This document shows positions 11,362-53,135 of a DNA stretch of 64,000 nucleotides, piece by piece. The number at the start of each line of letters is the position of its first letter. Within the stretch, counting starts at the first letter, position 1. The stretch is from Sandaracinus sp. (GTDB lineage Bacteria; Myxococcota_A; Polyangia; Polyangiales; Houyiibacteriaceae): assembly GCA_002699025.1 (NCBI GenBank), contig PABA01000050.1:62001-126000 (forward strand), given 5' to 3'. The notes beneath the pieces were generated by a model. The model did no database searches. It saw only the letters and a list, made by a program, of their open reading frames with translations, and was not told the origin of the DNA. The position numbers and the translations under genes were made by a program.

Positions 11362-11387
11362 GTAGCGGCGGCGCCAGCCGCCGCTAC
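11362..11387. terminator. Perfect 11-bp hairpin at the 3' end of the patatin-like gene
   Basis: GTAGCGGCGGC and GCCGCCGCTAC pair perfectly around a 4-base loop (GCCA). On the minus strand it overlaps the stop codon of the patatin-like gene (TAG at 11386-11384). There is no T tract, so termination would depend on the hairpin alone or on Rho; it could also simply protect the transcript end. Confidence 0.5.
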
Positions 11388-12298
11388 GCCTCGCCGACGT
11401 GGTGCACCGTCGTCGCGATCTCGAACACGCCCCGCCGCTTCGCCGCCGCGAGCACGCGCAGCGCCTCCCGATAGCCGCGGAGCAGGAGCTTCCGCGCGTA
11501 CCGGCGCGAGGTGAAGGAGTAGCGCCCGAGGTCCGGCGAGACGTTCAGCACCGTCACGTGCGGGTGTTGCTGCTGCATCAGGTCGATGCCGCGCCGCTCC
11601 TTCTCGGAGAGGATGATGTTCAGCGTCTGCCGCCCGACCGCCGCCACGCCCCGGCGCGCCACCGAGGGCCCCTTCCGCGTCACGTGGGGCCGGTAGACGT
11701 TCGAGACGATGATCACGTCCGCGCCCGCCTCGAGGGCGACGTCCATGCTCAACGTCCGCACCACCTCGCCGTCGACGTAGTAGCGCTCACCGACCTTGTG
11801 CGGCCGGAAGAGCATGGGCACGCAGGTCGAGGCCGCGATGGCCTCGCTGATGGGCACATCCTCGATGTGGCCGCGCCCGAAGACGGCCCGGCCGCGCCCG
11901 TCGATGTCGGCGGCCGTGACGAAGAGCTGCCGGTCCAGCAGCCGGAAGTCGTTGTGCGGCAGGCGCGAGCGGAGATAGCGCTCGAAGCGGTCGATGGAGA
12001 AGAGCCCCGAGAGGAGCCAGCCCGGGCTCCTCAGCTGCGCGGCGTTCGGCGCGCCCAGGAAGTAGCGCCCCTTGAGCGGACGCTTGCCCTCCCGCCGCCA
12101 GAAGGGGCGGAACCAATCGACCATCTCGTCGGCGGGAAAGCCCTGCGCGAAGAACGCGCTGGCGATGGCCCCGGAGCTGGCGCCGACGAAGATGTCGGGC
12201 TTCAGGCCGAGCTCCTCGAGGGCCTTGAGCACGCCGAGGTGCGCGACCCCCTTGGTGGCACCGCCGGTACCGACGAAAGCAACTTTCGGTCTCGCCAT
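11384..12298 (-). CDS. Patatin-like phospholipase (RssA/NTE family)
   Basis: A 304-residue patatin-fold serine lipase. The oxyanion motif is GTGGATKG (about residues 10-17), the nucleophile elbow is GASSGA (GxSxG), and the catalytic Asp of the Ser-Asp dyad is in YVDGEVVRTL (DG motif). The family hydrolyses acyl esters of phospholipids or lysophospholipids; the substrate here is unknown. I chose ATG at 12298 (MARPKVAFVGTGGA), where family homology starts, over an ATG 22 codons upstream. No signal peptide is seen, so it is probably cytoplasmic or peripheral. A possible promoter lies upstream at 12376-12404. Confidence 0.85.
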   Translation of the reverse strand: MARPKVAFVGTGGATKGVAHLGVLKALEELGLKPDIFVGASSGAIASAFFAQGFPADEMVDWFRPFWRREGKRPLKGRYFLGAPNAAQLRSPGWLLSGLFSIDRFERYLRSRLPHNDFRLLDRQLFVTAADIDGRGRAVFGRGHIEDVPISEAIAASTCVPMLFRPHKVGERYYVDGEVVRTLSMDVALEAGADVIIVSNVYRPHVTRKGPSVARRGVAAVGRQTLNIILSEKERRGIDLMQQQHPHVTVLNVSPDLGRYSFTSRRYARKLLLRGYREALRVLAAAKRRGVFEIATTVHHVGEA

Positions 12299-12375
12299 CC
12301 GCTTCGTTCGCTCCACTCCCCCCGCCGGACACCACCCCGAGCGCGTCGGACATCTGCCGGACACGCACTCGACAC

Positions 12376-15901: not shown

Positions 15902-16083
15902 CTCGCTGCGCTCGCTGCGCTTCGCGGCCGTCCGCTTTCCGCCGTCCGCTGTCCGTGGGCGGCGCCAGCGGCATCGGCGGGGGCCGCGTTCGCGGAGCGC
16001 TTCGCTTCGCGGCGCTTCGCGGCCTTCCGCCATCGCTCGCTGCGCTTCGCGGCCGTCCGCTTTCCGCCGTCCGCTGTCCGGGG
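15902..16083. repeat. Direct repeats of the TCCGCTTTCCG family
   Basis: Two near-identical copies of a stretch containing GCTTCGCGGCCGTCCGCTTT and CCGCCGTCCGCTGTCCG occur at about 15908-15954 and 16034-16080, separated by more GCTTCGCTTCGCGGCGCTTC-type sequence. No gene is seen. The stretch marks the boundary between the ordinary high-GC chromosome and the lower-GC defence island and is related to the repeats at 2387-2725 (which read in the other orientation). Confidence 0.7.
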
Positions 16084-16099
16084 GAGTCTCCTTTGCCGG

Positions 16100-16540
16100 T
16101 CAGTAGACCCTGGGCTGTACCACCTCGGCAGGGTGCCAAAGAGAAGACTCGACCGCAGCGTTGGCCCACGCGATCTGCCACCTGCCCGCCGGCAGGTGGC
16201 AGAAGTCTCGTGCCGCTACGAGCTCCATCAGGACGCCCCCCAGCACTGCTGCCGCATGGCTTCGGCGTGCCGACGCTTCGGCGGCCCAGCCGGCGAGCCA
16301 GCGTGGCGCCCCGGTGGGCGCGGATACCTCGACGTCTTCGACCCCCTCGACCAGGCTCGAGGCAGGGAAGCGGTGGCTCAGAACTCTCCGGACCACTCGC
16401 CCGCCGGCGTCGATCCAGTCGAGCCCGAGGCCGACCCTCCATCGCAGGTGAGGGGCTCCAGTGGGCGGATCAAACTCCACCTCAGCACCTCGAACGCGTG
16501 CTCGGAAGTCGCTTCGGCTCGCTCGTGCGAGCGCCAACAT
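16100..16540 (-). CDS. Hypothetical protein at the island edge
   Basis: A 146-residue open frame, ATG 16540 to TGA 16100, with plausible amino-acid composition (EVEFDPPTGAPHLRWRVGLG, WLAGWAAEASARR) but no family I recognise. Codon third positions are less G/C-biased than in the flanking chromosome, as in the DISARM genes. It is divergent from drmD with a 270-base gap. Its 3' part contains a perfect 12-bp hairpin (16175-16202), which would be translated as part of FCHLPAGRWQ. Competing frames overlap it, so it is uncertain whether this is a gene, a remnant, or none. Confidence 0.4.
   Translation of the reverse strand: MLALARASRSDFRARVRGAEVEFDPPTGAPHLRWRVGLGLDWIDAGGRVVRRVLSHRFPASSLVEGVEDVEVSAPTGAPRWLAGWAAEASARRSHAAAVLGGVLMELVAARDFCHLPAGRWQIAWANAAVESSLWHPAEVVQPRVY
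16175..16202. repeat. Perfect 12-bp inverted repeat
   Basis: CTGCCACCTGCC and GGCAGGTGGCAG pair perfectly around the 4-base loop CGCC. It is a palindromic, REP-like hairpin at the left edge of the defence island, inside the weak ORF 16100-16540. No second copy was noticed in the window. It could be a recombination or transposase target, a transcription stop, or chance within a coding sequence. Confidence 0.6.
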
Positions 16541-16810
16541 CGCCTGCGGGTCCCAAGGGTGGCGGTCAGCAGGTACACTGACAAGAGCGGGCCGCCCGAA
16601 ACTCCATGTGCAGTCGACTGCCGCCGTGCGGGAATGCGCGATTGAGCTCGCCTCGGGAACGCGGTGAGTCAGCGAGCTGCCGTCCCTGGTCGAGGACCCG
16701 GCGGCTATGGGTGCCGAACCGAACGATCCTCTCCGAAATCCCGTGGTAGAAAACGGGCCTTGCGGGAACGCCGGCGCCGGGCAGCGGGCTGGTGAGCCCA
16801 TTCTGAACCG
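16541..16810. promoter_or_regulatory. Divergent leader region of the DISARM operon
   Basis: A 270-base region, more AT-rich than the surrounding chromosome, that must hold the DISARM promoter. An inverted repeat CCCGT-8-ACGGG (16740-16757) lies about 55 bases before the drmD ATG and could be an operator. No convincing sigma-70 pair or Shine-Dalgarno is evident before 16811. Confidence 0.35.
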
Positions 16811-19800
16811 ATGAGCAGCGCCGAACCCCAGTCGCCCAACCCAAGCTCCGTGCTCGAAGCCCTCGCTGGCGAGCGGCTGCTCGACATCTCGAGGACGTTC
16901 GGCATTCAAGTCGAAGGGGGGCGCGAGACCAAGGCGAGAATGGCCGAGCGCATCGGCCTCCAGCTCGAGGGTCGGCTCCCGACGGTGCTCCGGGAGTTGG
17001 GCCGTGATGAGCTCCGGGCGGTATGCCGGCGTCACGGCCTGGACGACGACAGCCGGAGTCGCAGCGAGCTTCAAGCCCGGCTGCTGGAAGCCGCCGGGAT
17101 GGATCCGAGCAAGTCGGTTCCGCCACCGCCCGAGCACCACCTCGACCAGCTCCCGCAGCCGGGTCAGGTGGTGCAGGCGCGCCATCGGCAGTGGCTGGTC
17201 GAGCGGGTGGATCCCGGCGGCGGCCATGATTCGGCCCGGCTTGGGCTCGTCTGCCTCGACGACGATGCGCCCGGGGAGGAGCTGGAGATCCTCTGGGATC
17301 TCGAGGTCGGGGCACGGGTGATCGACCCCGCCGCCGAGGGCCTCGACCCCCAGGGGTGCCTCGACCCGCCGGGCCACTTTGGCGCGTACCTCCACGCGTT
17401 GAAATGGAGCGCGGTGAGCGCGGCCGACGCGACACGGTTCCAGGCGCCGTTCCGTGCCGGCATCAAGCTCATGGCGCACCAGCTCACGCCGCTGATGAAG
17501 GCGCTGGAGCTGCCGCGCGCCAATCTCTTCATTGCTGACGACGTGGGCCTCGGGAAGACGATCGAGGCTGGCCTGGTCCTCCAGGAGCTAATTCTCCGAC
17601 AGCAGGCGGAGTTCGTCCTCGTGGCTTGCCCAGCGTCCATTTGCCTCCAGTGGCGGGATGAGATGCAGCGGCGTTTCGGCCTTCGCTTCGAGGTCATGAC
17701 CGCCAAGTTCGTGGCTTGGCGTCGACAGGAGCGCGGCTTCGGCGTCAACCCGTGGTCGACGCACAACCGCTTCATCGTCAGCCATCAGCTTCTTCGGCGA
17801 CCCGAGTATCGGGAACCGTTGCTCGCCCACCTCGGGCCGCGGGCGCGCAAGAGCTTGCTCATCCTCGATGAGGCGCACGTCGCGGCGCCGTCGAGTCGGA
17901 GCAAATACGCCGTCGACAGTGAAACCACGGATACGATCCGAGGGCTCTCACGCCGCTTCGACAACCGGCTCTTCCTCAGCGCGACGCCCCACAACGGCCA
18001 CTCGAACTCGTTCAGCGCCCTGCTCGAGATCCTTGACCCCGTCCGCTTCACCCGCGGAGTCCCCATCGAGGGCCCTGAGGAGCTTGCGCCGATCATGGTC
18101 CGGCGGCTCAAGCGGGATTTGCGCCATCTCGGGGTCGAGCGGTTCCCCCGACGCCTGCTGGTCCAGCTCGCCCTCGAGCACGATGGCGGCGGCTGGACGG
18201 CCACCGAGACGCGCTACGACTCGGAGACACGGGCGGAAGAGGTAGGCGATACCACGGAGATCGGCGGGGCAGAGCCCTTCGAGCTCCAGCTCGCGGAAAA
18301 GCTCGCCCGATACACGGAGCTTTGCGCGCCGCCGAAGCAGGGTCGCGGACGACTGAGCTTCATCCGACTCCAGCAGCGCCTGCTGTCGAGCCCCGAAGCG
18401 TTCTGTCGCAGCCTCGAAGGCCACGCCCAGGCCGTCATGGAGCGGGGCGGGCCCGTCCTACGCGACGCCACCACGCAAGCGAAGCTGAACCTGGAGGCCG
18501 ACCCGGACCTCCACGGGCTTGACGACGAGGCGGCCGAGGCCGAGGCGGCGCTGGAGCTCTCGAAGGACAGCGAGCGCCTGCCCACGCCAACGGAAGAGGC
18601 GCGTGGATTGCTCTCGGAGCTTCGGGCCATCGCGGAGAAGGCGCGACGGCGCCCCGACGCAAAGGTGCGTGCGCTGCTGGCCTGGATCCGGAAGCACCAG
18701 TGCCCCGCCGTCGGAGATGCTGACGGCGGCGACCGCAAGTGGACGGATCGCCGAGTCATCATCTTCACGGAATGGGGCGACACCAAGCGCTACCTCGTCG
18801 ACCTGCTCGGCCAGGCGGTCGCGCATACGGACCGAGGCGACGAGCGGATCCTGGTCTTTCACGGTGGGATGGGCGACGAGAGCCGTGACGAGGTTCAGCG
18901 AGCGTTCAACACGCCGCCGGACGAACATCCGGTCCGCATCCTGATCGCCACCGATGCGGCTCGGGAGGGCATCAACCTCCAGGCCCACTGCGCGGATCTC
19001 TTTCACTTCGACCTGCCGTGGAATCCAGCGCGCCTCGAGCAACGCAACGGCCGAATCGACCGGACGCTCCAGCAGGCCGAAGAGGTGCGCTGCCACTACT
19101 TCATTTTCCCGCAGCGCAGCGAGGACCGGGTCCTCGAGACGCTGGTGCGCAAGGTCGAGACCGTACAGCAGGAGCTCGGATCCCTCGGCGCCGTGCTCCT
19201 CCGCGGCATGGAGAAGACGCTCGAGCCGGGCATCGACGAGAGTACCCAGGAGCAGCTCGCGCTAATCGGACAGGACGCAAACACGGAGGTCGTCGATCGC
19301 GAGCTCGAGTCGCAGCGAAAGGAGCTCGCGAAGCTGGAGGCGGAGCGATCCAAGGCGGCCCGTCGACTCGAAGCGTCCTCCAGGGCGCTTCAGGTGCACC
19401 CCGAGTCGCTAAGGGGCGTCGTGGAGGTCGGGCTCCGCATGGCAGGCGCGGACGGCCTCATCGAGGGCGAGCCCACCCGCGAGGGGCACCCCACCTTCTC
19501 GATGCCGGAGTTGGACCGCTCCTGGGACCGAACGCTCGACAGCCTCCGGCCGCCGAGAGGCCGCGATGAGCGCTTCTGGGAGTGGCGCCAGCGGGAGCCG
19601 CGCCCGGTGACCTTCGAGCCTCTCGCGCGGTTGACCACAGACACCGAGCAGCTGCACCTGGCGCACCCGGTCGTGAAGCGCATCCTCGACCGCTTCCTCG
19701 CGCAGGGGTTCAGCGCCCACGACCTGAGTCGGGTCGCCGCCGTGGTGGCCCCGAGTGAGAGTGTCATTCGAGTGGTGGCCTACGCCCGACTCAGCCTGTT

Positions 19801-20374
19801 CGGGCCCGGTGCGGCACGGCTCCACGACGAGATCATCGCCGTGCCAGCTCCCTGGTCGGGCAACGAGGCTGGGGTCGAGCCTTACAAGGATGCCGCCACG
19901 GCTCAGCGGGCCATCGAGACCACCGAACGCCTTCTCGCGCTCGACGCGAAGCCGCCCGGCAAGGCGATCCAGGCGAAGATCGCGGAGCGGGCCGCGGCGC
20001 TCTACTCGGATCTCTGGCCCGCGCTCGAAGACGAAGCGGACGCCCGCGCCGTGGCCGCCAAGAACGGGCTCACCCAACGCGCTCGGCGGGAGGCCGACGA
20101 GCTTCGTGGTCTTCTGCGACGGCAGAAGCGGGCCATCGAGAAGCAAGCGAACATCGTGGCGCAGATGGAGCTCTTCGCCCGGGCGGAGACCAAGGTCGAT
20201 AGGGAGCAGCAGCGTCAGCTCAAGCTCGACCACGAGCACATGAAGGCGCGTTACGAAGCGATCGACGCCGAGCTGGAGACCGAACCCAGGGCCATCGAAG
20301 AGCTCTACGAGGTCCGCATGACCCGGCTGTCGCCGGTCGGTCTCGCGGTGAGCTGGCCGGAGGCCATGACGTGA
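16811..20374 (+). CDS. drmD: DISARM class 1 SNF2-like helicase DrmD
   Basis: A 1187-residue SNF2-family DNA translocase, the signature gene of class 1 DISARM anti-phage systems. The N-terminal 190 residues are specific to the family. The helicase core has motif I ADDVGLGKTIEAG (about 241), the DEAH box LLILDEAHVAAP (about 350), the SATPHNGHS motif III, and motifs V/VI ATDAAREGINLQ and QRNGRIDR (about 743). A long charged coiled-coil segment (about 840-880 and 1070-1130) follows. The protein is presumed to move along incoming DNA and act with the methylase. Its stop overlaps the next start (GTGA), so it is the first gene of a coupled operon. Codon use is less G/C-biased than in the flanking genes, suggesting horizontal origin. 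Confidence 0.93.
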   Translation: MSSAEPQSPNPSSVLEALAGERLLDISRTFGIQVEGGRETKARMAERIGLQLEGRLPTVLRELGRDELRAVCRRHGLDDDSRSRSELQARLLEAAGMDPSKSVPPPPEHHLDQLPQPGQVVQARHRQWLVERVDPGGGHDSARLGLVCLDDDAPGEELEILWDLEVGARVIDPAAEGLDPQGCLDPPGHFGAYLHALKWSAVSAADATRFQAPFRAGIKLMAHQLTPLMKALELPRANLFIADDVGLGKTIEAGLVLQELILRQQAEFVLVACPASICLQWRDEMQRRFGLRFEVMTAKFVAWRRQERGFGVNPWSTHNRFIVSHQLLRRPEYREPLLAHLGPRARKSLLILDEAHVAAPSSRSKYAVDSETTDTIRGLSRRFDNRLFLSATPHNGHSNSFSALLEILDPVRFTRGVPIEGPEELAPIMVRRLKRDLRHLGVERFPRRLLVQLALEHDGGGWTATETRYDSETRAEEVGDTTEIGGAEPFELQLAEKLARYTELCAPPKQGRGRLSFIRLQQRLLSSPEAFCRSLEGHAQAVMERGGPVLRDATTQAKLNLEADPDLHGLDDEAAEAEAALELSKDSERLPTPTEEARGLLSELRAIAEKARRRPDAKVRALLAWIRKHQCPAVGDADGGDRKWTDRRVIIFTEWGDTKRYLVDLLGQAVAHTDRGDERILVFHGGMGDESRDEVQRAFNTPPDEHPVRILIATDAAREGINLQAHCADLFHFDLPWNPARLEQRNGRIDRTLQQAEEVRCHYFIFPQRSEDRVLETLVRKVETVQQELGSLGAVLLRGMEKTLEPGIDESTQEQLALIGQDANTEVVDRELESQRKELAKLEAERSKAARRLEASSRALQVHPESLRGVVEVGLRMAGADGLIEGEPTREGHPTFSMPELDRSWDRTLDSLRPPRGRDERFWEWRQREPRPVTFEPLARLTTDTEQLHLAHPVVKRILDRFLAQGFSAHDLSRVAAVVAPSESVIRVVAYARLSLFGPGAARLHDEIIAVPAPWSGNEAGVEPYKDAATAQRAIETTERLLALDAKPPGKAIQAKIAERAAALYSDLWPALEDEADARAVAAKNGLTQRARREADELRGLLRRQKRAIEKQANIVAQMELFARAETKVDREQQRQLKLDHEHMKARYEAIDAELETEPRAIEELYEVRMTRLSPVGLAVSWPEAMT

Positions 20375-23300
20375 GCGATCAGGATCGACGCTTTCACGAA
20401 GAGTGGCTTGGTCTCGCCCAGCCCATCGAGGGCCTGGTGTTCTCGGTGCCGGCCCTGGCGGATGCGCAGATCGCGCCGAAGGTCCGCGCCTCGCTGACCG
20501 CGGAGCTGGAGGCGCACCTGGAGATGGCTCCGGCCCACGAGGCGGGCAAGGAAGCCGAGGCGCTGCGGGATGTCCGCGCCTTCTTCGAGACGTTCCTGGG
20601 ATACGACCGGCCCGGAATGCTCGTGGATCGCGAGGCGCTGCCCAGCGAGCTGTCGTTCTACGCGCCGGAGGGGCGCCAAGAGATTCGGCCGAGCTTCGCG
20701 ATCGGCCGAGGACCGTTCCAGGGCGACGATGACGACCCGTTCGCCGCGTTCGACGACGCGCCTCAGAAAGCGACTGAGGCGGGCACAGAGCCGGCCGATT
20801 CCTCGGCCTTCATCGCGGTCGTGTGGGACCTCAGCTCCGATGCCCCGGAGTCGGCGACGCGCATCGACCTGGACAAGCCCGAGACCGAGACCGGACCGTG
20901 GCGCTACCCCCCGACCGCCAAGTTGGAGCGCTTCCTTCGGCACACCGGCGTGCCCATCGGTTTCCTGTCGAACCGGCGTGAGCTGCGTCTCATCTACGCG
21001 CCCCCTGGCGAGTCGAGCGCACACCTGACCTTCCGCTTCGACCAACTGGCCCAACGGGCGGGCCGACCTCTCGTCGCGGCTCTCGAGCTGATCTTCCGCG
21101 CGCAGCGAACCTACGAAGCAGCAGCCGACTACACCTTCGAGGGGCTGTTGCGCGAAAGCCGTCGCCGCCAGGCCGACGTCACCAAGGAGCTCGCCGAACA
21201 GGTCAAAGAGGCGGTGGAGATTTTGCTCGAAGGTTTCGAGCACGCGGCCGCTCGTGATTGCGTAGGCGAGCGGGTCGACTGGCTCCGCGCCGCCTTGGAT
21301 GAGCCGGACGACCACTTCTACCAGGGCCTTCTGAGTGTCGTTCTCCGGCTGGTGTTCATCCTCTACGCGGAGGACCAGAGCCTGGTCCCCGTCCATCACC
21401 CGACCTACGCGAAGCACCTGAGCGTGCTCGACTTGTACGAGCGCCTCGCGGACGACGCAGGCGCGCATCCGGAGTCCATGCACCAGCGCTTCGGCGCCTA
21501 CGGCCGGCTCATCGCGCTCTTCCGCGCCGTCTTCCTCGGGGTCACCCACACCTCGCCAGAGGGCGAAGAGCTTCGGCTTCCGCCGCGGCGAGGCAAGCTC
21601 TTCGACCCCAGCGCCTTCCCCTTCCTCGAAGGAGGCTTGCCTGACTGGACGGCTGCGATCGTCCTTCCCGAGCAGCGCGCGGCCGTCCAACTTCCCAGCA
21701 TCGACGACGACACCGTCTATCGCGTGCTGCACCGCCTCATCGTCTTCGAGGGACAGCGCCTGAGCTATCGCTCCCTCGACGTCGAGCAGATCGGTGCGGT
21801 CTACGAGTCCCTGATGGGCTTCCACGTCGTGCGGGTCGGGAGCCCGGCCGTGCGCCTCGGGAAGAACCGGGTATGGGCCGAGAGCGAGGCGCTCAGGGCG
21901 ATGAAGCCTCGGGATCGGAAGCGCTTCTGGAAGGACGTCTGCGGCCTGAGCACGGGCGCTCGAAAGAAGGCCGAGAAGGCGGTGAAGGAGGCCGAAGATG
22001 TGGCGAGTGCGGCCGAGACGCTCGCCGAGCTGGCGCCGGGTAAGAAGGCGGTTCGTGCGCGACATCGCGCCGCCGCAGGGCGGCTCGTGCTCCAGCCCGG
22101 GGAAGAGCGGCGCCGCACCGGCAGTCACTACACCCCGCGCTGGCTCAGCGAGAAGGTCGTCCGGCGCACGCTCGAACCCATCCTCGCCTGCCTCGGCGAA
22201 GACCGAACCGCCGAGCAGATCCTGGAGCTCAAGATTTGCGACCCCGCCATGGGCTCCGGCGCCTTCCTCGTCGCCGCATGCCGCCTGCTCGCCGAGGAGG
22301 TGGTGGCCGCCTGGGACCGCGCTGGAGAGACCGCAGCGCTCACCGAGGAGCACGGCGACGCGCTCCTGCACGCGCGGCGGCTCGTCGCGCAGCGCTGCCT
22401 CTACGGTGTCGACAAGAACGCCGCCGCGGTCGAGCTGGCGAAGCTCTCACTCTGGCTGGTCACGCTGTCGAAGGAGCTGCCATTCACGTTCGTCGACCAC
22501 GCCCTTCGGCACGGCGACTCGCTGGTCGGACTCGACCTCGAGCAGATCCGCAGCTTCCACTGGGAGCCGAAGGAGCAGGTCGAGACGTGCCGTGCTGCGT
22601 TGAATGACGCCCTCGAACAAGCCCTCGACCACCGAGCGCAGATTCTCGCGCTCGCCGACAAGGAAGACCCCGTCTCGCAGCGAGAGAAGCAGCGGCTGTT
22701 GGAGTACGCGGAGCAGGCGAACGAGCGAATCAGGATGATCGCCGACGTGTGCGTCGGGGCCTTCTTCGCCGAGGAGAAGGCCAAGGCGCGGCAGAGGGAG
22801 CGGGACCGGCGGCTGGAGCTCGTGCGGCGCTTCTTGGCGGGGGAGGAGGAGGTTCGGGACGAGCTGGAGGTGCTGGCCGCTCAGATCCGCGGGCGGCACG
22901 CGCCGTTCCACTGGCACCTCGAGTTCCCCGAGGTGTTCTATCAGGAGCGGCCGGACCCGCTCGAGGCCGGCAACGTGAACCGTGCGGCCTACATGGAGGC
23001 GTTCGTCGGGAACCCGCCCTTCATGGGCTCGCCCCAGATCGCTCGGCGGCTCGGGCCGGCCTACCGCGAGTGGACCTTCGCCCTCCACCATGGAGCTACC
23101 GGCCAAGCCGACCTGGTTGCGCACTTCTTCCTGCGGGCAGCCGGGCTGCTCGGCCCGCATGGCGCGCTGGGGCTCATCGCAACGAACACGATCGCCCAGG
23201 GCGATACGCGCACCACCGGGCTCCAGACACTCGTCGGCCGAGGCTTCGATATCTACGACGCGACCGTATCGATGGCGTGGCCTGGCGCCGCCGCGGTCAC

Positions 23301-24468
23301 AGTCTCGGTTGCCCATCTCGTTGTGGGTGCTCCCGTTGCCGCGATTAGCGAACGACGGCTCAACGACTTGAGCGTGCCGACGATCAACAGCCGGCTGCGC
23401 GGAAAACCCGAGCGTGCGGATGCCGCGACGCTGATGCGGAACGCCCCGTGGAGCAAGCAAGGACACGTGGTGGTCGGAATGGGCTTCACGCTGACGCCCG
23501 AAGAGCGTGACGCGCTGGTCGCGAAGGACGCGCGCAACGCGGCGAGGATCTTCCCGTACCTCGGCGGACAAGAGGTGAACACCAGCCCGACGCAGAGCTT
23601 CGACCGCTACGTGATCAGCTTCGGCCAGATGGCGCTCGAACACGCCGAGCGCTGGCCCGACCTGATCGCGATCCTGCGGGAGAAAGTGAAGCCCGAGCGC
23701 GACAAGGTAAACCGCAAGGCGCACCGCGAGCGATGGTGGCGCTTCGGAGATTTCCGCACGGGACTCCAGCAGGCCATCGCGCCGCTCGACCGTTGCCTCG
23801 TCGCGGCGATCGTTAGCAAGCACTTGATGTTCTCGTTCCAGCCGACCGACCGCATTTTCTCGCACAAGCTGTATGCTTTTCCGCTCGACGCCTTCACGGC
23901 GTTCGCAGTCCTGAGCTCGCGCGTTCATGAGCCTTGGGCTTGGCTCCTGTCCTCGACGATGCGCAACGCGGGAATCAACTACTCCGCAAGCGACTGCTTC
24001 GAGACCTTCCCGTTCCCCCAACCAGATCCTCGGGCCGTCATTGGCTCCCTCGAGACCATCGGCGAGCAGCTCTACGAGACACGCGCGGCCTTCATGCTCG
24101 ACACCGACCAGGGACTCACCAAGACCTACAACGCGCTCAAGGACCCCGAGAATCACGAGCCTCGCGTCCTCGAGCTCCGCCGCCTCCACGAGGAGATGGA
24201 CCGAGCCGTCCTCGACGCCTACGGCTGGTCCGACATCGAGGTCCCGCCGTTCTGCCCAAAGACGGACGCGGACCGCGCGGCGCTCCAGGAGTTCGAGGAC
24301 GAGGTCATCGACCGCCTCTACGTGCTCAACGCCGAACGAGCGAAGGAAGAGGAGCGGCTCGGGCTGCGCAAGAAGAAGGGCAGCAAGAAGAGGCGGTCGA
24401 AGAAGAAGGCCGTCAGTCGGTCGCGCAAGGGCTCGTCCGATGGAGATGAGCAGGGGACGTTGTTCTGA
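20371..24468 (+). CDS. drmMI: DISARM class 1 adenine-specific DNA methyltransferase DrmMI
   Basis: A 1365-residue N6-adenine methylase of the Eco57I/type IIG-like group. The SAM-binding motif I is DPAMGSGAFLVAACRLL (about residue 623) and the catalytic motif IV is NPPF (about 880, VGNPPFMGSPQ). A large N-terminal region (about 1-590) and a C-terminal target-recognition-like region flank the catalytic core, and the C-terminus ends in a Lys/Arg-rich tail (KKKGSKKRRSKKK). In DISARM it marks self DNA. It starts with GTG at 20371, overlapping the drmD stop by 4 bases, and ends 3 bases before drmA. The target site cannot be told from sequence. No PD-(D/E)xK nuclease motif is evident in the N-terminus, unlike true type IIG enzymes. 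Confidence 0.93.
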   Translation: MSDQDRRFHEEWLGLAQPIEGLVFSVPALADAQIAPKVRASLTAELEAHLEMAPAHEAGKEAEALRDVRAFFETFLGYDRPGMLVDREALPSELSFYAPEGRQEIRPSFAIGRGPFQGDDDDPFAAFDDAPQKATEAGTEPADSSAFIAVVWDLSSDAPESATRIDLDKPETETGPWRYPPTAKLERFLRHTGVPIGFLSNRRELRLIYAPPGESSAHLTFRFDQLAQRAGRPLVAALELIFRAQRTYEAAADYTFEGLLRESRRRQADVTKELAEQVKEAVEILLEGFEHAAARDCVGERVDWLRAALDEPDDHFYQGLLSVVLRLVFILYAEDQSLVPVHHPTYAKHLSVLDLYERLADDAGAHPESMHQRFGAYGRLIALFRAVFLGVTHTSPEGEELRLPPRRGKLFDPSAFPFLEGGLPDWTAAIVLPEQRAAVQLPSIDDDTVYRVLHRLIVFEGQRLSYRSLDVEQIGAVYESLMGFHVVRVGSPAVRLGKNRVWAESEALRAMKPRDRKRFWKDVCGLSTGARKKAEKAVKEAEDVASAAETLAELAPGKKAVRARHRAAAGRLVLQPGEERRRTGSHYTPRWLSEKVVRRTLEPILACLGEDRTAEQILELKICDPAMGSGAFLVAACRLLAEEVVAAWDRAGETAALTEEHGDALLHARRLVAQRCLYGVDKNAAAVELAKLSLWLVTLSKELPFTFVDHALRHGDSLVGLDLEQIRSFHWEPKEQVETCRAALNDALEQALDHRAQILALADKEDPVSQREKQRLLEYAEQANERIRMIADVCVGAFFAEEKAKARQRERDRRLELVRRFLAGEEEVRDELEVLAAQIRGRHAPFHWHLEFPEVFYQERPDPLEAGNVNRAAYMEAFVGNPPFMGSPQIARRLGPAYREWTFALHHGATGQADLVAHFFLRAAGLLGPHGALGLIATNTIAQGDTRTTGLQTLVGRGFDIYDATVSMAWPGAAAVTVSVAHLVVGAPVAAISERRLNDLSVPTINSRLRGKPERADAATLMRNAPWSKQGHVVVGMGFTLTPEERDALVAKDARNAARIFPYLGGQEVNTSPTQSFDRYVISFGQMALEHAERWPDLIAILREKVKPERDKVNRKAHRERWWRFGDFRTGLQQAIAPLDRCLVAAIVSKHLMFSFQPTDRIFSHKLYAFPLDAFTAFAVLSSRVHEPWAWLLSSTMRNAGINYSASDCFETFPFPQPDPRAVIGSLETIGEQLYETRAAFMLDTDQGLTKTYNALKDPENHEPRVLELRRLHEEMDRAVLDAYGWSDIEVPPFCPKTDADRAALQEFEDEVIDRLYVLNAERAKEEERLGLRKKKGSKKRRSKKKAVSRSRKGSSDGDEQGTLF

Positions 24469-24471
24469 GCC

Positions 24472-27400
24472 ATGGCTGACCGCGAACGAGAGCTGGAGAT
24501 CCGCAAGCGCTTGGTCGAAGCGCTGCACGCCGACCTCATCGGCCCCTTCGTGCCGCCCGACCACCCGGCGGGTGGTGAAGAGATCCTGCCGCTGCCGCCC
24601 TCCCGCTGGTATCTGACCGGTTTCCTCGCGCCTCAGGGTGGGCGAGACCCGGACGTCGACGATGAGGAGTCACAACAAGGCGGCCTGGCCAGCGACAACG
24701 ACACGCAGGCCGAGGACGCGGGCGAGTCGGAGCCGGAGACCAAGCGACCGGTGCGCTTCCCCGCGTCGATGGGTCTGAGCGTGTTCTTGCCCCCGGGTGA
24801 GGGCGACCACCTGACCGTGGACGTCCGTTTCGCGGACTACGACAAGGTCGAGACCGCCGAGGACCACGAGGAGCGCAAGTCGTGGGGATGGAAGCGGGTG
24901 CCCCACCAGGAGTCCGGCATCGTGATTCCGCTCGACCGTGCCGCCCTGGAAGGCCGAGAGGGGATCCCCATCCCCAACACCAGTGGCCTTCGCTTCCGCG
25001 GGGAGCTTCGGACCACGGCGATCGATGGCCTGCCGGACGGCGCCCGGATGCTCAGTCTCTTCCTGGTCAACGAGCGGGAGGCGCTCGAGAAGGACCGGGA
25101 CCTCAACTTCATCTTCCAGGTGCAGTTCACCCTGCACTACGAGCCGGGGTTTCTCTCTCGCCCGAATCGGCGCGGCGAAGGCGCGGACGACGAGGACCAG
25201 CGGATCCTCGCGCTCAACTTCCGGGACAAGGTCGAGTGGGCCGTGGGCCACAACACCAGCGTCGAGCTGCCGGCCGCGGCAGACGACTGCAAGGTCCGGA
25301 GCCTCTCGACGACCCAGCTGCCGCAGTATGAAGTGCGGCGCGTCGACCACATCCCCTTCGATGGCAAGGAGGATCGCCCGTCGGTTCTCACCGAGATGGC
25401 GCCGCTCGCCAAGCTCGACGGGAAGGGCCTGGCGAACGGGCTGACGCCGCTCGTCGAGGCGTATACGAGCTGGATCCAAGGCCAGCGCGACATCTCGCTC
25501 GACCGCGACGAGCTCGAGAAGACGCGACACGAGCTGATGACGAAGGCGACCAAGGCGCGCGACCGGATGCGCGAGGGCATCGCTCTTCTCGAGACGGATG
25601 ACGAGGTGCGCGAGGCTTTCAATCTCGCGAACCAGGCGATGCACGTCGCGGCGCTCCAGGCGGACAAGAACCGGGAGGACCGCCGCTACAAGGACGGCAA
25701 ACAGCCGGGGTGGCGCCCCTTCCAGCTCGCTTTCATCCTGCTCAACCTCGCCTCGGTCGCCGACCCGTCTCACCCCGACCGGGGAATCGCCGACCTCATC
25801 TACTTTCCGACCGGCGGCGGAAAGACCGAGGCCTACCTCGGCCTGATCGCCTTCACGCTCGCGCTTCGCCGGCTGCGTGGGAAAAGCCGGCCTGACGAGG
25901 GACGCGGGGTGGCGGTCATCCTCCGCTACACCCTTCGGCTGCTCACCCTCGATCAGCTCGGCCGCGCCGCGACGTTGATGTGCGCCCTCGAAGAGATCCG
26001 CCGGCGCAAGCCCGAGCGACTGGGCAACACCAGGTTCTCCGTCGGTCTTTGGGTCGGTCGCGCCGCGACGGCGAATCGCCTGCGCGATGTCCATCGAGCG
26101 CTGCACGACTACACGCCCGGCCTCCAGAGCTCGCCGTTCCCGCTCACGACGTGCCCCTGGTGCGGGACCGATATCCGCATCCAGAACATCAAGCTCGTCG
26201 ACGACAAGGGCAAGCCGAGCAAGACGAAGTACGTTCGGGCGGTGGTCTACTGCGAAGGCAGCGGTTGCCTCTTCACCGAGGCCAAGCGGCCCGGGAGCGG
26301 CCTGCCGGTGCTCTTCGTGGACGAGCAGATCTACCAGGAGCTCCCGGACTTTGTCGTCGCCACCGTCGATAAGTACGCAATGGTTCCGTGGAGGGGCGAG
26401 GCGGGCATGCTCTTCGGCCGGGCGACCCACGTCGATGACCGCCGGGCCTACGGCGTCATGCACAAGGCGCCCGCGGGAGCGACCCCGGTGCCTGACGGCC
26501 TGTTGCCGCCGGAGCTGGTCGTGCAGGACGAGTTGCATCTCATCAGCGGGCCCCTCGGCACCATGGTCGGGCTCTACGAGGCCGCCGTCGATTACCTCTG
26601 CGAGCGCGTCGTCGAAGGACAGCGCCGCGAGCCGAAGGTTGTCTGTTCCACCGCGACCGTGCGACGTGCGCGGGATCAGATCCGGGCGCTCTTCGGGCGC
26701 AAGATGGCGATCTTCCCGCCGCGAGGCGTGAACGCTGGCGACAACTTCTTCGCGCGCGTCAAGACGGAGGACTGGGGGCGGCTTTACGTCGGCGTCGGCG
26801 CGCCGGGTCGCGCGCTGCGAGCCGTGTCCGTCCGGAGCTACGCGACGCTCTTGGCCGCCGGACAGAAGTATTTCGATCCCAAGGGCCCGGCGGAGCAGCC
26901 GGCCGACCCGTACATGACGCTCGTTGGCTACTTCAACAGCCTGCGCGAGCTCGGCGGGATGCGCCGCCTCGTGGAGGACGAGGTCCGCAACCGGGTGTCA
27001 CGCTTCGACGAAGGAAAGCGACCGCAGAACTACGTCGGTCCCCACCCATGGGCCGCCGACCGCAACCTCAAGATGCCGGCCGAGCTCACCTCACGCGAGA
27101 GCACCGAGCGCGTGAAGGATACGAAGAGCCGACTCGCAGCCCGGCGGGTGGTCGAAAAGCCGGAGCCACTCGACGTGGTCTTGGCCTCGAACATGATCTC
27201 CGTGGGGCTCGATGTGGATCGACTGGGCCTGATGGTGGTCACTGGCCAGCCCAAGACCACCAGCGAGTACATCCAGGCGACGAGCCGCGTGGGCCGTGCC
27301 TATCCCGGGCTGGTCGTGACGTGCCTCAACGTGTTCCGGCCCCGAGACCGCTCGCACTACGAGCGCTTCGTCTCCTACCACGAGAGCTTCTACCGGGACG

Positions 27401-27888
27401 TGGAGGCCACCACCGTCACACCGTTCAGCGGGCAGACCCTCGATCGTGGGCTCGTCGGAACGATGCTCACGATGATCCGCCACGGTATCGACGAGCTACA
27501 GCCTCCGCTGGGCGTCATGGACATCCACAGCCAGCGAGCGCGCGCCGAAGAGCTGTTGGAGTGGCTCATCAAGCGCGCACGGCACCACCGGGACTGGCAC
27601 GACGACGAGGCCGAGGACCGCATCGCCGACCTGGTTCGCCGGCGTGGCCGGGACTTCCTCGACTCCTGGGAGCACATCATCGACAAGGCGAAGGCCGGCG
27701 GGGCCACTCGGGTCTACAGCGACCTGGACCGTGTGAAGCATGAGGGGAAGGCCCTCATGTACACGGCGACCGACGAGCCGCCGAGCGACCACGATGCCAA
27801 GCAGTTCGAGGCCCCAACCAGCATGCGAGACGTGGAGCCGAGCGTTCACGTCTGGCTCCGCTTCGCCCAGCTCGACGAGAGGAACTGA
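24472..27888 (+). CDS. drmA: DISARM helicase DrmA
   Basis: A 1138-residue superfamily 2 helicase with the DrmA layout. Walker A is FPTGGGKTEAY (about 445), the Walker B box is the characteristic VVQDELHLISGPLG (DELH rather than DEAH, about 684), and motif VI is QATSRVGRAYPG (about 934). A zinc-like CPWCG motif lies at about 560, paired with a later YCEGSGC. DrmA pairs with DrmB to form the core complex that recognises free 5' or unmethylated DNA. It begins 3 bases after drmMI and its stop shares one base with the drmB start (TGATG). Confidence 0.94.
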   Translation: MADRERELEIRKRLVEALHADLIGPFVPPDHPAGGEEILPLPPSRWYLTGFLAPQGGRDPDVDDEESQQGGLASDNDTQAEDAGESEPETKRPVRFPASMGLSVFLPPGEGDHLTVDVRFADYDKVETAEDHEERKSWGWKRVPHQESGIVIPLDRAALEGREGIPIPNTSGLRFRGELRTTAIDGLPDGARMLSLFLVNEREALEKDRDLNFIFQVQFTLHYEPGFLSRPNRRGEGADDEDQRILALNFRDKVEWAVGHNTSVELPAAADDCKVRSLSTTQLPQYEVRRVDHIPFDGKEDRPSVLTEMAPLAKLDGKGLANGLTPLVEAYTSWIQGQRDISLDRDELEKTRHELMTKATKARDRMREGIALLETDDEVREAFNLANQAMHVAALQADKNREDRRYKDGKQPGWRPFQLAFILLNLASVADPSHPDRGIADLIYFPTGGGKTEAYLGLIAFTLALRRLRGKSRPDEGRGVAVILRYTLRLLTLDQLGRAATLMCALEEIRRRKPERLGNTRFSVGLWVGRAATANRLRDVHRALHDYTPGLQSSPFPLTTCPWCGTDIRIQNIKLVDDKGKPSKTKYVRAVVYCEGSGCLFTEAKRPGSGLPVLFVDEQIYQELPDFVVATVDKYAMVPWRGEAGMLFGRATHVDDRRAYGVMHKAPAGATPVPDGLLPPELVVQDELHLISGPLGTMVGLYEAAVDYLCERVVEGQRREPKVVCSTATVRRARDQIRALFGRKMAIFPPRGVNAGDNFFARVKTEDWGRLYVGVGAPGRALRAVSVRSYATLLAAGQKYFDPKGPAEQPADPYMTLVGYFNSLRELGGMRRLVEDEVRNRVSRFDEGKRPQNYVGPHPWAADRNLKMPAELTSRESTERVKDTKSRLAARRVVEKPEPLDVVLASNMISVGLDVDRLGLMVVTGQPKTTSEYIQATSRVGRAYPGLVVTCLNVFRPRDRSHYERFVSYHESFYRDVEATTVTPFSGQTLDRGLVGTMLTMIRHGIDELQPPLGVMDIHSQRARAEELLEWLIKRARHHRDWHDDEAEDRIADLVRRRGRDFLDSWEHIIDKAKAGGATRVYSDLDRVKHEGKALMYTATDEPPSDHDAKQFEAPTSMRDVEPSVHVWLRFAQLDERN

Positions 27889-29780
27889 TGGCGGGCAAGG
27901 GAAGAGGTCGAGGCAAGCAGCGGAAACCGGAGCCGGAGGGGCAGCTGCGGCAGAGCCAGATGATCACCACCTTCGGCCCAGGATCGATGGTCGACCTCGT
28001 CGACCGCGCCGTCGTGATCGGCGGCCTGGAGCATTGGGGCTACAGCAAGAACGACGCCTCCGAGCCGCTCGATGATCCGCGGCTACGCCGTTCGCTGATC
28101 CCACGGCTCAAGGCGTTGCATCCGGACCTCGACCTCGCGAAGACCGACTACTTCCGTCGCCCGCCCGTGTGCGATTGGGATGACCGGCACCCCATCGTTG
28201 GCACGCGCGCTCTGGAGTTCCCCCGCTGGTTCGTCTGCCAGGGGTGCCAGCGCCTGGCCACGGCCGTCGACCAGTTCGAGAACAAGGGCGGCCGCTACCG
28301 CCATCAGTGCGCCAAGAACAGGTCGTCGCACGCCGTTCCGGTCCGCTTTGTCGCCGCTTGCCGCAACGGGCACCTGAGCGATTTCCCCTGGAAGTGGTTC
28401 GTGCATCTCGACCGCAAGGACGGCGAGTGTGACCGGCCCGAGCTCTACCTCACCGAGGGCGCGACGGGCGACTTCGGCAAGATCATCGTTCGCTGTCGGA
28501 ACTGCGGCGAGAGCCAACCCATGAATCGAGCGAAGGTCGGCGGGGGCTCGAAGTGCCCGGGCCACCGTCCGTGGCTCGGTGGGCCCGCGGCGAACGAACG
28601 GGACTGCGAAGAGAAGCTCCAGCTGCTCGTGCGCACAGGCTCCGACGCATACTTCGCGCAGGTCGTCAGCGCGCTTCGGCTGCCAGACCCCGAGCCGGAC
28701 CCGCTGCGCAAGCGCGTCCGAGAGAAGAAGCTCTGGGATGTGCTCAAGAACACGAAGAGCGAAGCGGAGGTCAGCACGCTGCTGGGCATCATCGACTTCG
28801 TCCGGGAGGCGCTCGACGGATTCACGCCCGAGCAAATCGCCAGCGCCGTTCAGGCCGAACGCGACGCAGAAGCGGGAGTGACCGATCGACCGCTTCGCTC
28901 GGCTGAGTTCGAGCGGATCACGACCGCGCCCCTCGAGCAGCCCGGCGTCGTGCCGGATCCCGACGTCCCGTTCGCCGCGTATCGGGTGCCCGAGTCTCGC
29001 ATCGATCTGCCTGATGGGGTGGCGGGCCTCGTCGTCGTTCCCGAGCTTCGTGAGGTTCGGGTCCAGGTGAGTTTCAGCCGCTTCGACTCCGTGAGCGCGA
29101 ATCTCCAGGGGGAGTACGACTTCGAGCAGGGCCGGGTACGCCCGGCACCGTTGACCATGCCGGGGGGCAACGAGAAGTGGCTGCCCGCGGCCGAGGTTCG
29201 AGGGGAGGGCATCTTCGTCCAGCTGGACGAGGCGGTTGTACAGGCCTGGGAGAAGTCGCCGGCCGTGGTTGAACGATCGGGGAAGCTCCTCGCTGCCTTC
29301 CATGTGGACGGTCGAGGCGAATTCCCCGGGATTCGCTTTTACCTCCTCCACTCTCTCTCGCATCTGCTGATGACCGCGATCAGTTTGGAGTGCGGCTACG
29401 CGGCGAGTGCGCTGCGTGAGCGCATCTACTGCAACCCGCCGGGGGACGTGGAGCCGCCGATGGCGGCGATCCTGATCAGCACCGGCACCACCGGCAGCGA
29501 GGGCACGCTCGGTGGACTCGTCGAGGAGGGGCGGCGGCTGCGTCGTCACCTTCGCGAAGCTTGGGAGATGGGCCGTCTCTGCTCCAACGACCCGGTGTGC
29601 GCCGCTCACGACCCCTCGAGCGAAGCCAGCGACCGGCGGACCGAAGGGGCCGCCTGCCACGGCTGCCTCTACGTCGCTGAGTGCTCCTGCGAGCGCTTCA
29701 ATAGGTATCTGGATCGGGCACTGGTGGTGCCGACGATCGGCAACGACCCAGCGCTCGCCTTCTTCCGGGAGCGACCGTGA
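27888..29780 (+). CDS. drmB: DISARM DUF1998 protein DrmB
   Basis: A 630-residue protein of the DrmB/DUF1998 family, the partner of DrmA. The N-terminus is Lys/Arg-rich and is followed by RQSQMITTFGPGSMVDL, a conserved family start. Cys pairs suggest zinc binding: CQGCQR (about 118), CRNCGE (about 203) and a C-terminal cluster CHGCLYVAECSCERFNRYLDR with Cys in CxxC and CxC spacing. The DUF1998 domain is the last 150 residues, containing FYLLHSLSHLLM. The gene overlaps drmA and drmC by 1 and 4 bases, so stoichiometric co-translation is likely. Confidence 0.94.
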   Translation: MAGKGRGRGKQRKPEPEGQLRQSQMITTFGPGSMVDLVDRAVVIGGLEHWGYSKNDASEPLDDPRLRRSLIPRLKALHPDLDLAKTDYFRRPPVCDWDDRHPIVGTRALEFPRWFVCQGCQRLATAVDQFENKGGRYRHQCAKNRSSHAVPVRFVAACRNGHLSDFPWKWFVHLDRKDGECDRPELYLTEGATGDFGKIIVRCRNCGESQPMNRAKVGGGSKCPGHRPWLGGPAANERDCEEKLQLLVRTGSDAYFAQVVSALRLPDPEPDPLRKRVREKKLWDVLKNTKSEAEVSTLLGIIDFVREALDGFTPEQIASAVQAERDAEAGVTDRPLRSAEFERITTAPLEQPGVVPDPDVPFAAYRVPESRIDLPDGVAGLVVVPELREVRVQVSFSRFDSVSANLQGEYDFEQGRVRPAPLTMPGGNEKWLPAAEVRGEGIFVQLDEAVVQAWEKSPAVVERSGKLLAAFHVDGRGEFPGIRFYLLHSLSHLLMTAISLECGYAASALRERIYCNPPGDVEPPMAAILISTGTTGSEGTLGGLVEEGRRLRRHLREAWEMGRLCSNDPVCAAHDPSSEASDRRTEGAACHGCLYVAECSCERFNRYLDRALVVPTIGNDPALAFFRERP

Positions 29781-30571
29781 CTGACGAGCGTTCGAGCCTG
29801 GCCGACGTCAGCACGTCCGCGCTCGAACGTCTCCGCGCCGCCATCGCCAGCAAGAGTCTCGATACCCCCGTCACCCGCACCAGCCTGGTGGCGTTCGGCA
29901 TCCGGCATCAGCTCGATGCCATCACGGACGCTCTTTCGGGCCACTCGCGGCTCGCCTGCCTGGCCATCGTCGACGTCGCGCTCGTAGAGCGCGCCAAGCA
30001 CAGCCGCCCGTCTCCCGAGCTCGTCTGGACGGGGCCGGAGGGGCACGGCGCGACCGCCCGCGACACCGCCATCGTGCTTCGTGGGCTCTTCGAGAGCGCC
30101 CGCGATCACGTCATTCTCGGTGGCTACAGCTTCACCCACGCGCGCAGCGTCTTGGCGCCGCTTCACGCGACCATGAAGGAGCGTGGCGTGCGGGCGACCT
30201 TCTTCGTCGACATCAAGCAGCCGAGGATCGCGACGGACCCGCCCGAGCGGCACGCGGAAGAGGCGCTGTCGGCGTTCCTCGAGGCGAACTGGCCCTTCGG
30301 CCCACCGTACCCGGCGCTCTACTATGACAAGCGGGCGATCGTGCCCCCGCGCCCCTATTCGATCCTCCACGCCAAGTGCGTCGTCGTGGATGCGGAGCGT
30401 GCGTTCATCTCGAGCGCGAACTTCACGATGCAGGGCCAGGAGCGGAACATCGAAGTCGGCGTGCTCCTCCACGACTCGGCGTTCGCGCGGCATCTCGCGC
30501 AGCAGTGGATGTCGCTCATCGAGGCTGGTCTGGTGTTGCCAGCGTCGGGGACTCTGGCCGGGCGGGCGTGA
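29777..30571 (+). CDS. drmC: DISARM phospholipase D-like protein DrmC
   Basis: A 264-residue PLD-superfamily protein. One complete HKD motif is present (HAKCVVVDAERAFISSANFT, about residues 198-217), so a dimer would be needed for the two-motif PLD active site. A degenerate first half (GGYSFTHARSVL) may be the second lobe. In DISARM, DrmC is a core gene but reported as dispensable for some phages. It starts with GTG at 29777, overlapping drmB by 4 bases. Its stop TGA shares a base with the ATG of the following gene (TGATG). Confidence 0.92.
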   Translation: MTDERSSLADVSTSALERLRAAIASKSLDTPVTRTSLVAFGIRHQLDAITDALSGHSRLACLAIVDVALVERAKHSRPSPELVWTGPEGHGATARDTAIVLRGLFESARDHVILGGYSFTHARSVLAPLHATMKERGVRATFFVDIKQPRIATDPPERHAEEALSAFLEANWPFGPPYPALYYDKRAIVPPRPYSILHAKCVVVDAERAFISSANFTMQGQERNIEVGVLLHDSAFARHLAQQWMSLIEAGLVLPASGTLAGRA

Positions 30572-31243
30572 TGGCCGAATCCTTCGAGGCGTACTTGGCT
30601 GCGTTCCAGGTGCGGCGAGCCACCGCCGAGAACGCGCTCAGCTCCGCCGGCCTACCCGAGCTGGAGCGGTTCGGGTTGAAGGTCGCGTTCCTCTTGGACG
30701 AGGGCCTCGCTCCCCTTCCCGAGGGTAAGGTGGGCCATGTCGTGGGAGCCCTGATTGCGAAGCTGATGAACGAGGTCCTCGCGTTCTCGGGTGCGATGCG
30801 AATGGGGGCGCTGCACGGCTCCTGGCACCACGCGCGTGCGCGCCGTGACGGACGTCGAAGCGACGGTCCACCATTTGTTCGATGCGGACCCGGCCCAGAC
30901 CGCCAGGAGAGTCGAGCAGTTCTTCGAGTTCGGCGAGATGGCACCGTGGTCTCGTCGTCGACGCTCGGAAATCGCCCGCGACGAGGGGGAGCTGTCCTCT
31001 GACGAGTTTCGTGCGAAGAACATCGTGAGCGATGCCTTGATCGCCCACGCCACGCCCGGGCGCATCGAGAGCTGGATGAAGCTGTTCTCGGCGAAGACCG
31101 AAAAGAAGCTGACGAAGCGAAGAGCCTGGCACGATGGCACGATCAAGTCACTCTTCGACGCCATGGACCCGAGCGGAGATGCCCACTTCAACTACGAGGT
31201 CCTGTGCCACCGACCCACGTGTCACCGCTGGGACATCGATTGA
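30571..31243 (+). pseudogene. DISARM-linked helical protein, split by an apparent +1 frameshift
   Basis: The ATG at 30571 overlaps the drmC stop. Frame 1 encodes a helical protein (MAESFEAYLAAFQVRRATAE, ..., LMNEVLAFSGAMRMGALHGS) up to about 30840 and then becomes low-complexity Arg-rich until a stop at 31002. Frame 2, open from 30791, carries a credible continuation from about 30845 (VTDVEATVHHLFDADP, RVEQFFEFGEMAPWSR, RRAWHDGTIKSLFDAMDP) and ends at 31243. Joined, they give about 224 residues, an all-helical protein that vaguely recalls DUF5677-type proteins. The shift lies near CACGCGCGTGCGCGCC. It could be a broken gene, a sequencing error, a programmed frameshift, or two ORFs, the second starting at GTG 30836 or 30845. 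Confidence 0.6.
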
Positions 31244-31543
31244 GCGGCTATGGCCCTCCGCGCCTGTTCGGTTGCGCGCCCGCCACCGCGCAGAAGGCCA
31301 CGGCGTCGATGTTCGGCCACGTGTATCGTGTCCTCAGCCGATTGGACCGGCAGGTTGGCGGTGAGTGTCAAGGTAGATGTCGCGTCAGAAGGGTCTACGC
31401 GGACTGCCTCGCTGAAGTGGAAGGCGTGGCCTCCTTGGGGGAGGCGGGGGCCGCGTTCGCGGAGCGCTCCTCGGGCGGCGCTGCTGCACGGGCGGGCGCA
31501 CGGGACGCGCGAGCGGGCTCCGGGGGACCTATACTGAGTACCC
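31244..31543. other. Gene-free right edge of the defence island
   Basis: About 300 bases between the split ORF and the next lipoprotein. Composition changes here from the island's mixed codon bases back to the G/C-saturated chromosome at about 31430 (GGGGGAGGCGGGGGCCGCGT). Weak overlapping open frames exist on both strands, but none has convincing codon use or a start site. No direct repeat or tRNA-like attachment site was recognised. Confidence 0.4.
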
Positions 31544-52929: not shown

Positions 52930-53135
52930 CATCGGTTCCCCGATCCCCCCGGCGAAGCCGGTCGGCGCCGAAGGCGACGAAACCCCGATCCCCCGCCGCG
53001 CAGCGGCGACGCGCCGAAGGCGACGAAACCCCCATCCCCCGCCGCGCAGCGGCGCCGCGCCGAAGGCGGCGAAACCCCGATCCCCCGCCGCGCAGCGGCG
53101 ATCCCCCGCCGCGCAGCGGCGACGCGCCGAAGGCC
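52930..53135. repeat. Tandem and dispersed GGCGAAACCCC-type repeats, 46-bp period
   Basis: Between a spacer and the TPR lipoprotein, three units of 46 bases start at about 52965, 53011 and 53057 (each GCGCCGAAGGCGACGAAACC-like, then CCCGCCGCGCAGCGGCGA), followed by a truncated fourth. CGCCGCGCAGCGGCG within each unit can fold as a hairpin. Related single pieces lie at about 52360-52425 (inverted), 60975-61020 and 61085-61155. No gene is contained. Confidence 0.8.

Follow-up and report, generated by a model that had tools for sequence, protein, structure and literature searches.

Five consecutive plus-strand genes occupy positions 16811-30571 of the 64-kb window (the whole stretch of DNA that was analysed), which belongs to a 238-contig, 9.24-Mb draft genome in which small assembly errors are possible. 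Open reading frames and PADLOC matches identify these genes as drmD, drmMI, drmA, drmB and drmC, in the order and interval that a first-pass annotation of the sequence had proposed. The first, drmD (16811-20374), encodes an SNF2-type helicase of 1187 aa (PADLOC DrmD, E=0, residues 110-1185), and is followed by drmMI (20371-24468), which encodes an MmeI/type IIG-like adenine-N6 DNA methyltransferase of 1365 aa with a target recognition domain (PADLOC DrmMI, E=0, residues 4-1352). The DISARM core helicase is encoded by drmA (24472-27888; 1138 aa; PADLOC DrmA, E=7.8e-266), its DUF1998/MZB partner by drmB (27888-29780; 630 aa; PADLOC DrmB, E=4e-74), and a phospholipase D-family candidate nuclease by drmC (29777-30571; 264 aa; PADLOC DrmC, E=1.4e-80). 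The annotation had described overlapping start and stop codons throughout, which holds for drmD/drmMI (4 nt), drmA/drmB (1 nt) and drmB/drmC (4 nt), but not for drmMI/drmA, where drmMI ends at 24468 and drmA starts at 24472, leaving a gap of 3 nt.

The PADLOC rule for type I DISARM requires DrmA, DrmB, DrmC, DrmD and DrmMI, and prohibits DrmE (PMC9252829). All five required components are present and the prohibited DrmE was not seen among the models listed; for each of the five proteins the top PADLOC model is the corresponding Drm family, with E-values far beyond chance, so that the class 1 hallmark set claimed in the first-pass annotation was recovered in full. The adjacent, single-strand, operon-like array is likewise that of a class 1 system. 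Neither DrmE nor DrmMII, the pair that marks class 2 (type II) DISARM, occurs among the PADLOC models listed for the five Drm proteins and the scanned flanking genes, the listing covering 25 models for each of the two longest proteins.

The domain content of the two proteins at the start of the operon agrees with these assignments. DrmD contains the Pfam domains SNF2-rel_dom and Helicase_C, with the motifs GLGKT (residue 246), DEAH (353) and QRNGRIDR (744), while DrmMI contains MmeI_Mtase, Eco57I, MmeI_TRD and MmeI_N, with the motifs DPAMGSG (624) and NPPF (881). DrmMI thus has the same methyltransferase, recognition and N-terminal domains as the MmeI-type type IIG enzymes. MmeI itself needs a D-x9-ExK nuclease motif; unlike in those enzymes, this motif was not seen in the N-terminal (MmeI_N) region of DrmMI in an alignment of 13 operons, where RPSFA-like and WDL segments are conserved. 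Because the motif was not seen, we rejected type IIG nuclease activity for DrmMI and read the protein as a methylase without nuclease activity, from which methylation only would be expected.

DrmA carries the SF2 helicase motifs GGGKT (residue 448), DELH (686) and QATSRVGR (935), the DELH box named in the first-pass annotation lying at residues 686-689, together with the Pfam domain Helicase_C. DrmB matches Pfam MZB and contains three CxxC pairs, at residues 117, 203 and 590. The alignment of both proteins with the solved DrmAB complex of Serratia sp. SCBI (PDB 7s9v/7s9w, PMC9142583) spans almost all of their length: DrmA residues 10-1125 with 7s9v_A (E=1.1e-201), and DrmB residues 15-626 with 7s9v_B (E=2.1e-82). 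The helicase motifs of DrmA and this homology of both proteins to the complex are again those of a class 1 system, and the class 1 DISARM of Serratia has the same component set by the PADLOC rule, although the host here is a Polyangia-like bacterium. Serratia DrmA is longer (1325 aa vs. 1138 aa), and the match starts at its residue 136. In the Serratia protein a trigger loop spans residues 176-232 (PMC9142583); DrmA residues ~52-92 form an acidic stretch that aligns with this position, but is shorter. Because the acidic stretch falls where the Serratia trigger loop lies, autoinhibition of DrmA by an acidic loop is plausible.

DrmC matches Pfam PLDc_2 and contains a single HxKx4D motif (HAKCVVVD, residue 198). 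Its stop codon is overlapped by the start of a sixth plus-strand gene, now a remnant (30571-31363) of an unnamed family of ~280-aa proteins and interrupted by at least two frameshifts. Intact relatives of ~280 aa are encoded in two genomes of the order (L102:8023-8868 and L101:8678-9508; L and G numbers denote loci and genomes of the comparison), and the intact relatives from G175 and G046 align with the window copy in successive segments, the frame changing near 30.84 kb and again near 31.21 kb. The region has coding-like codon-position G+C, and the window copy has no Pfam or PADLOC match. We considered this gene as a new DISARM component and rejected it, since it is frameshifted and no homologue was found next to the other DISARM operons among the related operons examined. 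It is probably a decayed passenger and not part of DISARM; two assembly errors within one gene are a possible source of the frameshifts, less likely than decay. The gene may have arrived with its neighbours or may already have been resident, and DISARM would not need it.

A free two-breakpoint fit delimits a block of low G+C at 16060-31440 (67.7% vs. 74.1% G+C). The first-pass annotation had predicted a drop in composition at 16.1 and 31.3 kb, which we found at about 16.1 and 31.4 kb, and its claim that the drm genes have less G/C-biased codon use than their flanks agrees with a third-position G+C of 0.83-0.88 in the five genes vs. mostly 0.93-0.99 in their neighbours. Its box of 16811-30571 does hold the five drm genes, but the acquired block is larger and extends past drmC. 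A minus-strand ORF upstream of drmD (16100-16784) was rejected as a gene, having neither a family match nor coding-like codon-position G+C.

Close to both breakpoints lie the copies of a perfect 26-bp direct repeat, GGCGGGGGCCGCGTTCGCGGAGCGCT (plus strand), the left at 15976-16001 and the identical right copy, at the right composition breakpoint, at 31443-31468. At up to 2 mismatches, a 25-mer of the repeat occurs just twice in the 9.24-Mb draft. A 20-bp core has seven exact copies, and 165 genomic matches at up to 3 mismatches vs. 63 in a reversed control; it is a dispersed repeat family of the genome, and we therefore rejected the 26-bp repeat as a clean attachment site. The family core, GGGCCGCGTTCGCGGAGCGC, is present in the window at 15909-16091 and 31443-31468, and elsewhere in the genome is often clustered with a spacing of ~90-180 bp. 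A 58-nt repeat pair flanks the left repeat copy on both sides. No integrase, recombinase or transposase was recognised among the genes found at 16.0-31.4 kb, nor, accordingly, the recombinase beside an attachment site that would mark an integrase-borne genomic island. The lone tRNA of the window lies at 53008-53093, and an Rfam scan of the window gave no match. Recombination through the dispersed repeats is a possible route of arrival.

To the left of the block lie efp (EF-P, Pfam) and an epmA-like gene of the class II lysyl-tRNA synthetase type, and to the right a lipoprotein-like gene followed by malQ; the names epmA and lipoprotein come from our reading of the sequences and are putative. 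Two genomes of the same family, G047 and G046, retain the order efp-epmA-lipoprotein-malQ, but their distance from epmA to the lipoprotein gene is ~0.1 kb and 1.6 kb, respectively, as against 15.6 kb here. The breakpoint fit and these two sites without the block place the acquired segment, by inferred extent, at 16002-31442, between epmA and the lipoprotein gene. Further to the left, a 326-aa protein encoded on the minus strand (11387-12364) weakly matches PADLOC phospholipase effector models (1.3e-07) and is probably an ordinary patatin-like phospholipase.

DrmA is present once in this genome. A scan of the genome contigs returned two loci, one of which is a 100% identical 3.6-kb contig in a bin named after ERR599081; this contig stops before the flanks and so adds nothing on the insertion site. 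Of 184 genomes of the order, 57 have a DrmA homologue, and homologues of less than 60% identity are found in 85 plasmid records. DrmA is 80% identical to its counterpart in G061, a member of another family, yet EpmA of the two genomes is only 56% identical; for the same-family genomes G046 and G021 the pattern is the opposite (DrmA 54%, EpmA 69-70%). As judged from these identities, the two genes are phylogenetically incongruent. Since DrmA is closest to that of another family whose EpmA is so distant, horizontal acquisition of the DISARM block is well supported; what had been suggested from codon bias now has in its favour both the syntenic sites without the block and this incongruence.

Related operons share the gene set and order of this one at ~50-80% identity. 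Within the same order, class 1 DISARM operons from other genomes, among them L033 in G061 and L054 in G114, keep the arrangement drmD-drmMI-drmA-drmB-drmC, with DrmA identity of up to 80%, but in many of them 1.7-11 kb of additional genes separates drmMI from drmA, where the operon described here has its 3-nt junction. Counted over the 15 operons in which both genes could be placed, with distances taken between tblastn match ends, the spacing is 1.7-11.2 kb in ten (L033, L034, L039-L042, L045, L094, L095 and L097) and short in five, this one among them. The intervening cargo includes a PIN-domain gene paired with an HTH/DUF433 gene (L033:6542-8218), a dGTPase-like gene (L034:11762-14171), Septu PtuA (L039:5901-8191), Septu PtuA and PtuB (L040:11756-14690), an M78 peptidase gene (L041:6127-8218), a C39-peptidase ABC transporter (L094:12050-19842) and a ParA/AAA ATPase gene (L097:13837-19151); the remaining intervals are L042:11762-15158, L045:11780-13982 and L095:465-11635. 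Foreign genes in such loci have precedents: ShdA homologues lie within Pseudomonas DISARM loci (PMC10270631), and in Cutibacterium acnes a 32.5-kb defence insertion splits drmMI (PMC7365801). A broader reading is put forward tentatively. In it, the block would be a discrete integrase-free cassette that came in, and can exit, by recombination between copies of a dispersed intergenic repeat family, and it would belong to a Polyangia branch of class 1 DISARM whose operons repeatedly accommodate other genes, for defence or not, in a slot between drmMI and drmA that is empty in this copy. Taken as a whole, this reading is rather unlikely to be right.

Three other accounts of the locus were weighed. 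That the methylase and helicases come from a restriction system, either of type IIG or similar to BREX, has some basis in cross-matches: type IIG models also hit DrmMI (best 4.9e-157), and BrxHI hits DrmD (7e-58). These models nevertheless score well below the Drm models (522 vs. 1233 bits for DrmMI, 195 vs. 1018 bits for DrmD), DrmA, DrmB and DrmC are present, and no PglZ, BrxC or HsdR occurs among the PADLOC matches listed. The reassignment that would have undone the first-pass annotation did not happen: on these profile scores, a restriction-system origin appears refuted in practice and has almost no probability left. An operon that is class 1 DISARM by descent but a non-functional, decaying passenger in this genome is a more serious prospect, given at least two frameshifts in the gene adjoining drmC, but is still improbable: each of the five drm genes keeps an uninterrupted full-length frame, the catalytic motifs are retained, and the decay of a gene not found beside other DISARM operons says little about DISARM.

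Slightly less probable again is the view that the block was not recently acquired, DISARM being an old resident of the order and low G+C being usual for large multidomain genes. The number of genomes of the order with DrmA homologues fits such residence, as does the third-position G+C of ~0.81-0.96 of related DISARM genes in other hosts. Against it stand the two same-family genomes with the same flanking gene order and no block, the nearest DrmA relatives in other families, at odds with the signal of the host genes, and the coincidence of the composition breakpoints with direct repeats. We therefore hold with high confidence that the operon is a complete and probably functional class 1 DISARM system that entered the space between epmA and the lipoprotein gene by horizontal transfer. 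As a well-preserved further example of an established defence system, it represents no new type and contributes no new component or mechanism.

Its anti-phage activity is predicted from the DISARM family, as are the steps by which it would act. DrmMI would mark the DNA of the host by methylating adenines at N6, with its MmeI-type recognition domain determining the target sequence. DrmA and DrmB would form a complex that the acidic loop of DrmA keeps inactive. Incoming phage or plasmid DNA that is unmethylated, and single-stranded or with a 5' overhang, would displace this loop and permit ATP-driven translocation, as in the trigger-loop model for Serratia DrmAB (PMC9142583), and DrmC or another nuclease would then degrade the DNA. 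An SNF2-type remodeller or translocase, DrmD may act at some step of this pathway.

The locus contributes a complete class 1 DISARM operon with well-defined boundaries from a lineage that has received little study, and the signs of its horizontal transfer are clear. Together with its relatives it is also of comparative use, as the drmMI-drmA junction of these operons often holds other genes, including the Septu pair, and DISARM operons can therefore host other defence systems.
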